Made by a program: the position numbers and the translations under genes. From contig JAFPWH010000071.1 in NCBI GenBank assembly GCA_017395065.1, positions 1 to 64,000 on the forward strand: 64,000 nucleotides of DNA. Reading direction: 5' to 3'. Origin of the DNA: Clostridia bacterium (GTDB taxonomy: Bacteria > Bacillota > Clostridia > Christensenellales > Aristaeellaceae). Positions 1,121-6,877 of the stretch are shown here, in pieces; the stretch's first letter is position 1, and the number at the start of each line of letters is the position of its first letter. Under the pieces are notes generated by a model, which was not told the origin of the DNA, searched no databases, and saw only the letters and a list, made by a program, of their open reading frames with translations.

Positions 1121-1169
1121 ACAAATAAAAAGTATTTGAATAATACTATAGGGATTGGAGATGCTATAT

Positions 1170-2042
1170 ATGCGTAAAACACTTATTTGCATCGTACTAG
1201 TTGTATTCTTATCATACAGTGCTTCAGTTATAGCTGAAACATGGATTTGCCCTTTTTGTGAGAATGAGGCAAGAGATAATTATTGCAGCATATGTGGTAT
1301 ACAGAGCCCACTTGATTCATGGATCTGCATTCAATGCAAAAATGAAAAAACTGGTAACTTTTGTAATGAGTGTGGCTCACCAAGACCGACTCCTATTTCA
1401 TCGGTTAAGGTGTCGAATAACGTAGAAAATGGCATTAATAGAGGAGCTACTCCGGAGTTAACCAGTGAAGAAACAACAGATGATAAAGCTCAAACAGTAA
1501 CTGTGAAAAACTACGTTGGTAGAAATCTGTCTTCATGTGGTTATACTTCATTAGGTGGAGATAGACGCGATAGATATGCCGATACTACGATACTGCTGGT
1601 TTTATTAGATCTCGACGGTATCTATATAGATCCTATGGATACAAGTGCATTAGGAAGTTACAGGGTAGTAGCACAGTACCCTGAAGCAGATACGAGTTTT
1701 AAGATAACAACAGATGAAGATGGAGAATCAGAGAATCTTGGTTATGGTGAAATCATTCTGGTTGTTACTAACAGTAATAAGAATGCAGAAGTGCTAAATA
1801 TGTCCACAGTCCGTCCCTCCCCTGACAAAAGCATTCAATATGTAAGAGATTATAAAGGTAGAATGCTTGAAGATGTTGGCTATACTGCAATCAATGGGAA
1901 TAGATATGATAAATATGGCCCTGATGGATACGTTCAGATAATTATAGTGGATGAACAAGGCGGAATAATAGATCCATCAGAGTATAAGGATTTATTTATT
2001 ACATTGTTCTTGATCAGGATGTGGCTCCTGATACAGAAATGA
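1170..2042 (+). CDS. Secreted double-zinc-ribbon protein, 5-prime part (frameshifted)
   Basis: The start chosen is ATG 1170, nine bases after GGAG; the upstream in-frame TTG and ATG overlap or crowd that site. A signal peptide (about residues 1-23, ending VIAE) is followed by two zinc-ribbon-like units, WICPFC...CSIC and WICIQC...CNEC, then GSPRP. Two repeats of a PASTA-like unit follow, each with VxxYxGRxLxxxGYT, an RxDxY motif and DxxGxxIDP. The second repeat is cut off: near 1990-2010 the frame shifts and the protein ends in an unrelated hydrophobic tail. Its proper continuation lies in the -1 frame from about 2005 (VLDQDVAPD). The gene is visibly AT-richer than the rest of the window. Function unknown; probably an extracellular or surface protein. 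Confidence 0.75.
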   Translation: MRKTLICIVLVVFLSYSASVIAETWICPFCENEARDNYCSICGIQSPLDSWICIQCKNEKTGNFCNECGSPRPTPISSVKVSNNVENGINRGATPELTSEETTDDKAQTVTVKNYVGRNLSSCGYTSLGGDRRDRYADTTILLVLLDLDGIYIDPMDTSALGSYRVVAQYPEADTSFKITTDEDGESENLGYGEIILVVTNSNKNAEVLNMSTVRPSPDKSIQYVRDYKGRMLEDVGYTAINGNRYDKYGPDGYVQIIIVDEQGGIIDPSEYKDLFITLFLIRMWLLIQK

Positions 2043-2695
2043 CATTTTACTATACTGCTGACGAAACGGGCGTTGAGGATTGCTCGGATCAATCAATCGA
2101 TGCGATTCAGATTACCGTTAGATTAACAGAGCAAGGTATTGCAAAATTTAAAGCCGAAGCTGATGAAGAAGCAGCATTACGTGCTGAGGGAAAGATACGT
2201 GAATTATATCAAGGCAACTATGAAATAGGCAAAGATCTGCCATCTGGGAACTATGAATTATCTTTGATTAGTACCTCGTGTAGCGTCTATGTATATAATA
2301 ATAAAACATCTTTTGAGAACAATAAAGGTGACTGGAAATATCTATATGGAAATGACGATAGAGAGTATCTTTATCTGACAGAAGGAATGTATCTAAAAGT
2401 ATCTGGTGGTGCAACTGAAGCAAAGATACGTGATGTTAAGCTGAATGATTCAGAGTGCTTGTTATACACAGGTGTTTATCAAATTGGAGTTGACTTGGAT
2501 GCGGGCAGTTACGAGTTGAGGCCATATACTGATGCAAGTAGTGTTTATCTATATCAGACTGTATCCAATTTTAAAAACAACAAGGATGGAAAGTGGATGT
2601 ACCTTTATGGAAAAGATGATAAAGAGTATCTTTCTTTAAGAGATGGTATGGTCCTCAAAGTAAGTTCAGGAGCGACTTTAGCCAAGAAAAAATAA
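2021..2695 (+). CDS. Secreted zinc-ribbon protein, 3-prime part (continuation after the frameshift)
   Basis: This frame completes the second PASTA-like unit (DQDVAPDTEMTFYYTADETG) and then has two copies of a beta-rich unit of about 75 residues. Each copy contains GxYxIGxDLxxGxYEL, SVYxYxxxxxFxNNK, WxYLYGxDDxEYLxL and GMxLKVSxGAT. It has no signal peptide and no convincing ribosome site, so it is unlikely to be made on its own. Restored, the gene would run 1170-2695 (about 508 residues). The shift could be a real inactivating mutation, an assembly error, or recoding, but no classical slippery heptamer is seen at the junction. Confidence 0.65.
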   Translation: MAPDTEMTFYYTADETGVEDCSDQSIDAIQITVRLTEQGIAKFKAEADEEAALRAEGKIRELYQGNYEIGKDLPSGNYELSLISTSCSVYVYNNKTSFENNKGDWKYLYGNDDREYLYLTEGMYLKVSGGATEAKIRDVKLNDSECLLYTGVYQIGVDLDAGSYELRPYTDASSVYLYQTVSNFKNNKDGKWMYLYGKDDKEYLSLRDGMVLKVSSGATLAKKK

Positions 2696-2790
2696 TCATT
2701 TTGACATGTTCTTACCAAATAGGACAGTATTTTTAAAGTAAAACAATGCGCTTTTCTTCAGGAAAAGCGTATCCGAAAGAGGGGCTTTGA

Positions 2791-5700
2791 ATGGCGAGAA
2801 GATTCCTTTGTGTATTATTGGCTTTAACGTTTCTTATTTCCGTAGACTGCTCTTTTGCAGAGAACTGGATTTGCCCCGGTTGCAAAAATGAAGCTACAGG
2901 TAATTTCTGTAGTGAATGCGGAACAGCTAAGCCGGTTATGAAATCGCCTGATTGGATCTGCCCCAACTGTGGGAATAATGCTACTGGTAATTTCTGCAAC
3001 AATTGTGGTACAAAAAGACCGGAAACTTCCAAGCCGGAATCGATAGATTTTGAAGAACAAGTAGATGGATTATATGTTCATGCTAAGGAAGATGGTACAT
3101 CGATATATAGAAGTCCCAACATTGAAGATGAGTGGGCTAAAGTGAACATAGACTATGAGTTTTTACTGATAGCAAAAAGTGGTAATTGGCTCAAAATTTC
3201 CAGTACAATTAATAGCTTCGTTGTCTATGCCTTAGAAGATGAATTCACATTTAGTTCAAAGCAATATGAAACAATTGCTCCCACGCCAACGCCGACACAG
3301 AGTATCACTCCTACGTCGACACCAATAGGGAAGATAACGCCTACGCCATCAACAACACCGAACACGACACTCAGCCCAATGGCTACGCCTTTTTCTGCAG
3401 AAGGATACAGTGATGTGTTTGTTAAAGGGGACTTTTCATGTTCTTATGTTGATGGAGGAATAATAATCGTCCGCTATAATGGAAACAGTAGCTACATCAG
3501 CATCTCATCTACGATCGAAGGCAAAAAGGTTATTGGCATAGCATCGAATGCGTTTCGTGATTGCCAAACTATAGATTCGATTACAATTTGGCCTAGGTTG
3601 ACTTCCATAGGTGATTATGCCTTCGCAGGATGTACAAGACTTACGAGCATAAGCATTCCAGGTTCAGTAACTTACATTGGAGTGTCTGCCTTTGAAGGTT
3701 GTTCCTCTTTAACCAGCGCAACAATTTGGAGTGGTCCAACAGTAATCAAAGAGCGAGCATTTAAGGACTGCATTAAATTGACTTCTATAAGCATACCAGG
3801 TAGTGTCAAAACAATTGAACCATATGCATTCTACAACTGTTCAGCTCTTACGAGCGCAACATTTTGGAGTGGTATAGAGTGTATTGGAGAATCAGCATTT
3901 TGGGGGTGTGTTAAACTACAGAGTGTTAGTATTCCTTCCTCGACGAAGCTTATCGAAAAGTCAGCTTTTTGTGGTTGTAAATCGTTGAATTCGATCACTT
4001 TTTGGGGTGGCACTAATATTGGAGATTACGCTTTTCAGGGATGCACCAAGCTAAGGAGTATTTCAATTTCGCGCAAGACAGAATACATTGGTAATTATGC
4101 GTTTGAAGGATGCTCTTCATTGTCAAGCGTAATCACGGATTCATACACCAGCATAGGTGTGGGTGCTTTTGATAATTGCCCTGCTTTAAGGAACAAACCT
4201 GTTTATCCACGGGGCACTGTTCCAGATGAAACATCTTCAAGCATTAATGGTTCTGTTACTCCAACTCCAACTGTTTTTTCACAAAACCACTCCAATCAAG
4301 ACGCGGTATCTATAGACCAAACTCCTCGACCAACAATAACACCAAACGTAATCTCATCAAGCTTACCGGATCAATATACCAGTGGTAATTATGTTGATGG
4401 TGGTACATTGATGAGCATAACTTGGGAATTGTATGATACTGGCCTTCTGATCATAAGCGGAAGTGGATATTTAAATAGTGATTCAGCATGGTCACGTTAT
4501 AAAGCAAGGATTAAATACATCTTCATTGAATCTGGCATTGTAGATATAGGAGATAACCTGTTTAGCTCATACACCAATCTTGAAGGAATTGATATACCGG
4601 ACACAGTCAAGAGAATTGGATATAGAGCTTTTTATTCCTGTGAAAAGCTGCATGAGATTACTATTCCCGGAAATGTTAAAGAAATTGAAGATTATGCATT
4701 CGCCTATAGCGGGCTAACATCTTGTATAATTGAGGAAGGAGCCACTACCGTATCGGATTACTGTTTTTATTACGCTTCAGATTTAGAAAGTGTGAAATTA
4801 CCGAGTACACTGACAGCTATTGGGCTCAAGGCTTTTTATTCCTGTGAAAAGCTACATGAAGTTACTATTCCCGGAAATGTTAAAGAAATTGAAGATTATG
4901 CATTCGCCTATAGCGGGCTAACATCTTGTATAATTGAGGAAGGAGCCACTACCGTATCGGATTACTGTTTTTATTATGCATCAAGTTTAGAGAACGTAGA
5001 ACTGCCGAGTACGTTGACAGTCATTGGATTTAAGGCATTCTATTCTTGTGATGTAAAAGTGATAACGATTCCTTCAACGATTCTTGAAATTGGACAAAAC
5101 GCATTTAACTATAACGATGATTTGCAGATAGTGTATTATCAGGGTTCAGAAAGTGAATGGAATGATGTGAATAAACATAATTCTGGCATTCAAGAGGGAG
5201 TCATAGTATTCAATAATCCGATTGAAGTTAGCAATTCATCTGATGTGTTCACAATTGGTGACATGTATGTCTTTGGCATGTATGAACAAGACAATAACAA
5301 GTCAAATGGAAAAGAGCCAATTGAGTGGATCATCCTTGACGTGGATGTAGACGGTAGCATATTATTACTGAGCAAATATGCATTGGATGCGCAACCTTAT
5401 CATACAAAACTCAGAGATACAATATGGGCGACTTGTACATTGCGCCAATGGCTGAACAAAGATTTCTTGGATGCTGCATTTACAGATGAAGAACAAACAA
5501 AAATTAAAGTCGCCAAAATAGTCAATAATGGCAATCCTTTTTATAGTAGAGAGGGCAGTGATGATACAGAAGATAAGGTATGGCTTTTGAGTATCTCCGA
5601 GATTAATGAATATTTTAAAGAGGATGAGGATCGTTTATGCGCACCAACTAAATATGCAGCTGAACGAGGTGTAGCTCTTAGTAAAAGATATTCTGTTGAT

Positions 5701-5856
5701 GGTTTAAGCGCTTGCTTTTCATGGTGGTTACGTTCCCCCGGATATAGACATGATACAGCTGCTACTATAACGGTTGACCTAGTAAACGGAGAGGATTATT
5801 GTGCAGTTTCTTATGGCTGGCTTGGTGTACGCCCCGTAATTGTTATCATGCCTTAG
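2791..5856 (+). CDS. Large secreted BspA-like LRR_5 protein with double zinc ribbon and DUF6273
   Basis: A 1021-residue protein with a signal peptide (about 1-24, ending SFAE). Two WICPxCxNxATGNFCxxCG zinc-ribbon units (about 25-80) closely resemble those of the preceding gene. An SH3-like segment (about 88-160) and a Thr/Pro linker follow. A first block of LRR_5/BspA repeats has the pattern IxxxAFxxCxxLxSIxIPxSVxxI (about 210-480), then comes a second Pro/Thr linker and a second LRR_5 block (about 540-780). The C-terminal domain resembles DUF6273 (about 815-1021; WIILDVD, LRxWLN, WWLRSPG, GVRPVIVI). BspA-type repeats usually serve adhesion or carbohydrate or protein binding at the surface. 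There is no sortase motif or membrane anchor. The start has AGAGGGG seven bases upstream. The gene is AT-rich, like its neighbour. Confidence 0.85.
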   Translation: MARRFLCVLLALTFLISVDCSFAENWICPGCKNEATGNFCSECGTAKPVMKSPDWICPNCGNNATGNFCNNCGTKRPETSKPESIDFEEQVDGLYVHAKEDGTSIYRSPNIEDEWAKVNIDYEFLLIAKSGNWLKISSTINSFVVYALEDEFTFSSKQYETIAPTPTPTQSITPTSTPIGKITPTPSTTPNTTLSPMATPFSAEGYSDVFVKGDFSCSYVDGGIIIVRYNGNSSYISISSTIEGKKVIGIASNAFRDCQTIDSITIWPRLTSIGDYAFAGCTRLTSISIPGSVTYIGVSAFEGCSSLTSATIWSGPTVIKERAFKDCIKLTSISIPGSVKTIEPYAFYNCSALTSATFWSGIECIGESAFWGCVKLQSVSIPSSTKLIEKSAFCGCKSLNSITFWGGTNIGDYAFQGCTKLRSISISRKTEYIGNYAFEGCSSLSSVITDSYTSIGVGAFDNCPALRNKPVYPRGTVPDETSSSINGSVTPTPTVFSQNHSNQDAVSIDQTPRPTITPNVISSSLPDQYTSGNYVDGGTLMSITWELYDTGLLIISGSGYLNSDSAWSRYKARIKYIFIESGIVDIGDNLFSSYTNLEGIDIPDTVKRIGYRAFYSCEKLHEITIPGNVKEIEDYAFAYSGLTSCIIEEGATTVSDYCFYYASDLESVKLPSTLTAIGLKAFYSCEKLHEVTIPGNVKEIEDYAFAYSGLTSCIIEEGATTVSDYCFYYASSLENVELPSTLTVIGFKAFYSCDVKVITIPSTILEIGQNAFNYNDDLQIVYYQGSESEWNDVNKHNSGIQEGVIVFNNPIEVSNSSDVFTIGDMYVFGMYEQDNNKSNGKEPIEWIILDVDVDGSILLLSKYALDAQPYHTKLRDTIWATCTLRQWLNKDFLDAAFTDEEQTKIKVAKIVNNGNPFYSREGSDDTEDKVWLLSISEINEYFKEDEDRLCAPTKYAAERGVALSKRYSVDGLSACFSWWLRSPGYRHDTAATITVDLVNGEDYCAVSYGWLGVRPVIVIMP
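4627..4974 (+). repeat. Recent 204-bp tandem duplication inside the LRR_5 block
   Basis: The segment starting GCTTTTTATTCCTGTGAAAA at 4627 recurs at 4831, an offset of 204 bases (68 codons, three LRR_5 units). For about 145 bases the two copies differ at only a few positions, including silent sites. Confidence 0.85.
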
Positions 5857-5985: not shown

Positions 5986-6172
5986 TGGCACATCACCCAA
6001 AGTCCGTCTCTGACTGACATTTTAGACAATTCCGGTCACAGACCGTCATAGACGCACAAGAATCCGTTGCTTTCCGAGTGGATCGATTTGAGCAAAATCG
6101 GGTGTAATCCGATGGAATCGAGCTTGCGAGCATAAAAAAGACCGGACTTGGATTGACAAATCCGGATCGCTA

Positions 6173-6541
6173 TTAAGTTCCGATTTGTGAATCTGAACTC
6201 CTGCTGTCTTTAGCTGTGTTGATCGAGGCAATGAGGAGCCTGCGGATCGTTCCACAGCGGTCGGACAAAGCCTTGACGGTTTCATTGTCGGCAAGTCCGG
6301 ACTATGTGAACAATTCGAGCCAATATTCGGTCTCATAGCATTCTTTTAAAGCGATTTGGAGCTTTGCGACAAAGTCGGCCCTTCCGTGTGCGTAATTTGC
6401 TTCATGGATATATGCGCCGATGGAAGTTGCAGATCGCTCAAACTGATTTACGAGAGCGCGATGCCCGCTTACCGTCTCACAGAATTTAATCGCATCGACC
6501 GCAAATTGCATTGACAGAGTTCTAAGTTTCGATTCAGCCAT
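6173..6541 (-). pseudogene. Four-helix-bundle protein (S23/Avd-like), interrupted by an in-frame TAG
   Basis: From ATG at 6541 the protein reads MAESKLRTLSMQFAVDAIKF, then RSATSIGAYIHEANYA and KLQIALKECYETEYWLELF. This is the family of small four-helix-bundle proteins that includes the 23S rRNA intervening-sequence proteins and the Avd accessory proteins of diversity-generating retroelements. A TAG at 6302-6304 stops it at 79 residues. The same frame continues with SGLADNETVKALSDRCGTIR and LLIASINTAK to TAA at 6173-6175, the expected C-terminal helix and the usual length of about 122. The stop sits where relatives usually have Lys or Thr, so one base change explains it. GAGG lies eight to nine bases before the ATG. 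The hairpin array at 6592-6767 lies directly upstream. Confidence 0.8.
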
Positions 6542-6591: not shown

Positions 6592-6767
6592 GTGAAATAT
6601 CGCGCTGCGCGCGATGTGAAATGTTTGCCTTGCGGCAAACGTGAAATATCCGGCTGACGCCGGGTGTGAAATGAAATAAATTCCCACGCCCGCAGGCATT
6701 TCACGTAGCGCAGCTACATTTCACGCGCGAAGCGCATTTCACAAATCCCGACAGGGATTTATTTCGT
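6592..6767. repeat. Array of GTGAAAT heptamers alternating with short hairpins, with central inversion
   Basis: GTGAAAT occurs at 6592, 6616, 6641 and 6666, and its complement ATTTCAC at 6698, 6718 and 6736, with a degenerate copy ATTTCGT at 6761. Every interval except the central one is a perfect or near-perfect small hairpin: 6599-6615 (ATCGCGC/GCGCGAT), 6623-6640 (GTTTGCC/GGCAAAC), 6648-6665 (ATCCGGC/GCCGGGT, one G-T pair), 6705-6717 (GTAGC/GCTAC), 6725-6735 (GCGC/GCGC) and 6743-6760 (AAATCCC/GGGATTT). The hairpin stems differ in sequence, but the heptamers are conserved. The left half reads direct and the right half inverted around a 25-base centre. The centre edge (6673-6685) is also nearly complementary to 6754-6765. 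It lies 51 bases upstream of the four-helix-bundle gene. Confidence 0.9.
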
Positions 6768-6769
6768 TG

Positions 6770-6802
6770 AAAAAACGACGTGCTTTTGCACGCCGTTTTT
6801 TT
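6770..6802 (-). terminator. Terminator of the tRNA-Arg gene (bidirectional)
   Basis: A6-CGACGTGC pairs with GCACGCCG-T7 around TTTT, giving T runs on both strands. Confidence 0.85.
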
Positions 6803-6803
6803 C

Positions 6804-6877
6804 CGTGCCTGGAGGGATTCGAACCCCCGACCTTTTGGTTCGTAGCCAAACACTCTATCCGGCTGAGCTACAGGCAC
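6804..6877 (-). tRNA. tRNA-Arg (anticodon ACG)
   Basis: The reverse strand folds as a cloverleaf with acceptor stem GTGCCTG/CAGGCAC, T-loop TTCGAAT and anticodon loop CTACGAA, giving anticodon ACG (read as inosine-CG). CCA is not encoded. It has its own promoter and terminator. It borders the accessory region, which makes it a candidate past integration site, although no repeat of its 3-prime end is visible on the far side. Confidence 0.95.

Follow-up and report, generated by a model that had tools for sequence, protein, structure and literature searches.

The heptamer-hairpin array at positions 6592-6767 of the window (the whole 64,000-nucleotide stretch of Clostridia DNA that was analysed) is one copy of a dispersed element, and probably acts in cis within a small mobile element of the S23/IVP kind. 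The layout starts from a tRNA or tmRNA gene and continues with a terminator, the inverted word-hairpin array, a promoter and the S23/IVP gene.

Anatomy and recurrence of the array

In the window, the array lies about 50 bp from the start of the S23 gene (6541, minus strand), and its other side is occupied by a terminator and then a tRNA-Arg gene. The features are as follows:

6134..6166, minus strand: terminator B, native to tRNA-Arg and now displaced downstream of S23; in G001 a homologue follows the tRNA directly, and homologues follow partial tRNA copies in G000:C36, G005 and G002
6173..6541, minus strand: S23/IVP four-helix-bundle gene of 122 codons (PF05635, TIGR02436), with an in-frame TAG at 6304-6302 (codon 80)
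6592..6672, plus strand: second array arm, with direct GTGAAAT words (Gut-1, 48.6 bits)
6592, 6616, 6641, 6666: direct words GTGAAAT of the second arm (spacings 24, 25, 25)
6673..6685, no strand assigned: GAAATAAATTCCC, located at the turn between the arms as the distal complement to the strand of the first hairpin near 6754-6766, with which it offers an alternative long-range pairing; the arrangement is conserved in 46 other loci
6693..6769, minus strand: first array arm, the Gut-1 match (RF01706, 75 bits)
6698-6704, 6718-6724, 6736-6742: inverted words ATTTCAC of the first arm, with a degenerate ATTTCGT near 6761 (spacings 20, 18, 25)
6770..6802, minus strand: terminator A (AAAAAACGGCGTGC-loop-GCACGTCGTTTTTT), which apparently travels with the array, being found with it behind tmRNA in G004 and unlike the native terminator in G001
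6804..6877, minus strand: tRNA-Arg (Rfam tRNA, 67.8 bits; isotype from ARAGORN), an intact host gene with the unit at its 3' end

The words, spacings, hairpins and orientation flip described in an earlier note on this DNA were all confirmed in place, as was its four-helix gene beside the array, which scores 59.8 bits with PF05635 (cut-off 33.8) and 67.4 bits with TIGR02436. Each non-central gap is a near-perfect hairpin, with a stem that differs from gap to gap. The array is real and not a product of chance: its 176 nt hold one 7-mer seven times, reverse complements counted, a density reached for any 7-mer by one of 2000 first-order Markov sequences, and the array strand folds better than shuffled sequences with z-scores of -7.7 (DNA) and -6.3 (RNA), none of 200 shuffles being as good. 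The words of one arm pair with the words of the other in the predicted fold. Elsewhere in the window (1155-5856), adjacent proteins have, by sequence appearance, zinc-ribbon-like starts and BspA-like leucine-rich repeats.

The open reading frame listed for the S23 gene comprises 79 amino acids and stops at the TAG, the homologous C-terminus runs on to codon 122, and a whole-length match contains one TAG. This S23 copy is therefore broken, and because of the TAG at codon 80 the copy of the element in the window is probably dead. Purifying selection on S23 is strong (median dN/dS of 0.05 over 94 pairs). The function of S23/IVP proteins has been unclear for more than 25 years (PMC4990558). A relative with a solved structure, 2RLD, has five chains. 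To our knowledge, S23 has no catalytic domain.

The earlier note knew of no described function for the array. The sequence motif itself is known, however: an Rfam scan matched RF01706 (Gut-1) to 6769-6693 on the minus strand, over model positions 1-77 of 77 and, at 75 bits, above the gathering cut-off of 50 bits, and the second (left) arm scored 48.6 bits. Gut-1 was published in 2010 (Weinberg et al.) as a stand-alone noncoding RNA of the human gut only, not cis-regulatory and without function or partner (PMC2864571). In contrast, the Gut-1 match here is one of two inverted arms that make up an array with S23 and tRNA genes as neighbours, an architecture that is also present in MAGs from ruminant, horse and deer gut.

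Each of the three outcomes that the note had named as refuting it turned out the other way. The array is not unique to its site: a further Gut-1 copy lies on contig 67 of the window's own genome, and Gut-1 was found in 14 of 60 relatives (the window's genome counted in) and in 84 of the order's 396 genomes. The richest genome, G043, has 52 matches, and G046 has 29. The words vary by copy and genome (GTGAAAT, GTGATAT, GTTATAT, RTGATGT, RTGAAGN, GCGATAT, GCTAAAT and others), and both arms of one array have the same word, inverted. In G283 and G420, direct-only word-hairpin arrays (L292-L308) occur amid AAGCCTTCCCC..GGTGGCTGAG and ATTATTC/ATTCACT heptamers as composite repeat islands.

Association with S23 genes and insertion behind RNA genes

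S23 is encoded by 97 of the 396 genomes of the order: 65 of the 84 genomes with Gut-1, versus 32 of the 312 without it (odds ratio 30, p=6e-33 by Fisher's test with genomes treated as independent and kinship ignored). Possible causes for the 19 Gut-1 genomes without a detected S23 are assembly gaps, loss, or supply in trans. The enrichment of arrays near four-helix genes that the earlier note anticipated is also seen gene by gene, at least two word-hairpin-word units being located within 450 bp upstream of 101 of 180 S23 genes, whereas such units were seen in none of the 540 shuffles and in 14 of the 675 control segments. A contig scan with one S23 protein yielded 80 loci in MAGs of gut and rumen Clostridia, nearly all with an array, typically of four words per arm. 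At one locus (L027, G013:C27:164-300) the S23 gene next to a word-hairpin array is truncated where the two meet, which looks like insertion of the array into the gene or recombination between them. A phage-labelled human fecal record (L338, MT835815.1:3912-5659), which may be bacterial DNA, shows the usual succession of tRNA-Arg, terminator, hairpin array (with the word GTGATAT) and S23.

Several other identities for the unit were rejected. As a defence system it gave no match in PADLOC. As phage cargo it is represented by only two fecal phage-labelled records, and no S23 relative was confirmed in viral_contigs. A type III toxin-antitoxin system was discarded because the array precedes the S23 promoter instead of lying between a promoter and a terminator.

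The units are inserted at the ends of RNA genes: 72 of 106 array-S23 units are behind a tRNA gene on the same strand and none behind one on the opposite strand, versus 1 of 81 control windows, and 15 tRNA isotypes are used. The terminator of array units starts between -4 and +3 nt relative to the tRNA 3' end. The terminators of tRNAs without an array are equally placed (27 of 31 within the same range), so this position was no longer taken to prove that the terminator is part of the element. The terminator is assigned to the element because the native terminator is displaced and because the same terminator is shared at two different RNA genes. In the sister species G001, tRNA-Arg is directly followed by the terminator CCGGATTTGTCC..AAGTCCGGTTTTTT, which constitutes an empty site; in the window, a homologue of this terminator is downstream of S23, and a different terminator is behind tRNA-Arg. 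In G002 the same tRNA-Arg site is occupied by a different S23 element, whose terminator is a third one and whose heptamers have no hairpins between them. The terminator and array of the window recur behind tmRNA in G004 with 85% identity, and the sequences behind tmRNA in G000 and G005 are unlike that of G004.

The empty site and the displaced terminator show insertion, and together with the presence of the same terminator and array at tRNA-Arg and tmRNA in two species they indicate that the unit moves, terminator included. The description in the earlier note, a small mobile or structured-RNA element, is thereby supported in its first half; a structured RNA looks less likely than a role as DNA. 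The right junction of the insert is close to 6167. No target-site duplication is visible at the one resolved junction pair, and many mobile elements make none. As in a transposon or MITE, copies of the element are dispersed over different sites, and one site was found empty in a relative; a candidate second empty site, around G311, was not used, the locus being rearranged. Several members of the genus have partial copies of tRNA-Arg, about 51 nt from its 3' half, with CGGTAACAAAG and then the native terminator behind them (G000:C36:88560-88780, G002:C40:1473-1669, G005:C279:16003-16251, G006:C70:7799-7885); these copies are read as att-like scars of integrative islands at that tRNA.

Co-variation of word and protein, and the likely mode of action

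When word classes (assigned by patterns, with 22 rows assigned by hand) are mapped onto a tree of 172 S23 proteins, they change 22 times, versus 79.7 times in shuffles, and GTGAAAT words, including those of the window, occupy one part of the tree. The word thus follows the S23 clade, and appears to change together with S23 as if the protein reads it; the shared tree could partly reflect linkage. Genomes with S23 of the RTGATGT clade are enriched for dispersed RTGATGT units (p=0.0005, S23-adjacent arrays counted in); G377, for instance, has 71 TGATGT units on many contigs. Some genomes, such as G024, mix words. Among 613 distinct word-gap-word units, 463 are hairpins, versus 51 once the gaps are shuffled, and their stems are of 241 different sequences and 97% Watson-Crick, in agreement with the earlier proposal that stems vary yet pair. 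Linked descent alone gives some clustering, yet the intervening stems are not kept, and therefore it is concluded that the word is kept while the stem is free provided that pairing holds. The first hairpin's 5' strand, together with part of the word, is matched by a further exact complement some 82 nt away at the arm turn; this was seen in 46 loci, which have 15 different stems, and the window shows the same distal complement at 6673-6685 with one extra base. This arrangement allows two mutually exclusive pairings, one local and one long-range, which change together between elements.

Across 92 loci, the -35 box of the S23 promoter usually follows immediately on the last word (the best promoter score is at least 9 of 12 in 67 loci; these are raw best scores without a shuffle control); the promoter in the window is weak. 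Given this promoter position, the array is outside the S23 transcript, and the terminator shields it from the tRNA transcript. This position argues against expression as a noncoding RNA, and the evidence as a whole leans towards a role as DNA. It is rather unlikely that the array is transcribed as a branched rod that S23 binds, as Avd and IVS proteins might bind RNA partners, so that it would spread with the element and act as RNA. Such a role would accord with publication of the motif as an RNA (PMC2864571), with the z-score of the RNA fold, and with the location behind tRNA genes and the IVS parallels in rRNA (PMC4990558). The base pairs are divided: on the sense strand of S23-linked arrays, G.T pairs outnumber A.C (27 versus 10, p=0.008 with ancestry ignored), which would fit RNA or one DNA strand, but over all units G.T (26, or 1%) is not above A.C (43). 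The inverted arms, with reverse-complement words and loops, suit recognition of double-stranded DNA or of either strand.

Two further readings are less probable still. The words could be operators of S23 and possibly other genes in a regulatory or insulating array of the host, dispersed by old duplication without active mobility; the last word does abut the S23 promoter, the terminator and array are directly behind tRNA genes, and S23 is under purifying selection. This is improbable in view of the patchy presence of the array, the empty site, the different units at one site in sister species, the occurrence of one unit behind both tRNA and tmRNA, and the dozens of gene-less copies. It is very improbable that the array is a repeat of the REPIN or retroelement type for which a Y1 transposase or reverse transcriptase encoded elsewhere in the genome provides mobility, with S23 a mere passenger. 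Word-plus-palindrome units in inverted pairs look like REPs, and Avd, a homologue of S23, works with a reverse transcriptase. Over the 396 genomes, however, arrays are not associated with the reverse transcriptase domain PF00078 (odds ratio 1.3, p=0.32) or the Y1 transposase domain PF01797 (odds ratio 0.89, p=0.69), and of the 23 genomes richest in arrays, 9 have neither enzyme and 20 have S23. The sole reverse transcriptase match of the window's genome is on another contig, C14.

In the preferred reading, a mobile element of the S23/IVP kind, the mobile unit would comprise terminator, two-armed inverted word-hairpin array, promoter and S23 gene, and would insert at the 3' ends of tRNA and tmRNA genes. 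S23 would bind the repeated 7-nt word and so join both arms, and may repress its own gene, whose promoter in most relatives directly adjoins the last word. The arms may extrude as single strands or cruciforms, DNA rather than RNA being the presumed active form, and host replication or repair enzymes are proposed to cut and copy them because the element encodes no known catalyst. Gene-less copies would be non-autonomous, moved in trans by an S23 that fits their word. On this basis the orphan Rfam family Gut-1 would gain an identity, S23/IVP proteins would gain a concrete and testable job in recognising 7-nt words, and the separate puzzles of Gut-1, rRNA intervening sequences and bacterial heptamer repeats would be linked. 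If S23 and host enzymes suffice for movement, this would be a mode of transposition without parallel among the systems known to the authors, and protein and nucleic acid would have left a natural record of their co-evolution in the changing words.

Relationship to other S23 genes and repeat systems

Tandem words in inverted orientation also flank S23 genes on plasmids from Bacteroidota, Spirochaetota, Cyanobacteriota, Chloroflexota and Bacillota. Inverted 8-mers common to both flanks of S23 were found at 18 of 18 loci, versus 6 of 18 in a mismatched-locus control, and at 50 of 59 S23 genes of the order that lack hairpin arrays, versus 21 of 59 in the control. All 41 strongly periodic flanks have a period of 7. 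S23 elements appear to form one class, in which the protein would recognise 7-nt words and the array probably acts as DNA. More tentatively, S23/IVP genes may represent a class of mobile elements that crosses phyla without a transposase or reverse transcriptase, in which a small and probably pentameric four-helix protein reads a co-evolving 7-nt word. Such a class would appear in three forms: the IVSs of rRNA, the heptamers that flank S23 in cyanobacteria and further phyla, and the Gut-1 arrays. Plasmid S23 genes are also situated inside defence operons (L346, L349, L341, L347, L348, L336): between cas2 and cas1 (Anabaena, Nostoc), beside the DISARM gene drmD (Planktothrix), between DUF1156 and Swt1-HEPN genes (Gloeocapsa, Chlorohelix), and between hsdS and hsdR (Monoglobus).

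Several known systems share parts of this organization. Avd of diversity-generating retroelements (DGRs) is a four-helix-bundle homologue of S23 that works with a reverse transcriptase, whereas the S23 of the window has no such gene beside it and arrays have no association with one. REPs and REPINs with RAYT likewise combine a short conserved word with a variable palindrome in inverted pairs, and have many non-autonomous and few gene-bearing copies; the arrays here differ in having no link to Y1 transposases, three or four units per arm, and S23 as the partner protein. The STRR heptamer repeats of cyanobacteria are tandem words of period 7 that were observed here to flank S23 in inverted orientation in Nostoc and its relatives, but they have no hairpins between the words; no paper in the library searched ties STRR heptamers to S23.

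A close parallel is the intervening sequence (IVS) of 23S rRNA in Coxiella burnetii, which encodes a PF05635 protein, has tandem heptamers (GACAGAT) upstream of the S23 start and inverted ends, lies in a structural RNA gene and has spread by horizontal transfer (PMC4990558). By analogy, the 7-nt words between the hairpins would be of the same kind as these heptamers. The Coxiella IVS protein seems dispensable, and the origin and function of IVSs are called unclear in the same paper, through which a 1993 proposal is known that the IVS is a mobile element with an open reading frame serving its mobility (PMC4990558). The Rfam scan found no rRNA in the window and the element is behind tRNA-Arg, so its location is not that of an IVS. 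The element belongs with the S23/IVS kind; the reading as a new transposase-less class is possible. It differs from the IVS of 23S rRNA in its position behind tRNA and tmRNA genes, in the hairpins between its words, in its own terminator and promoter, and in its dispersed gene-less copies.
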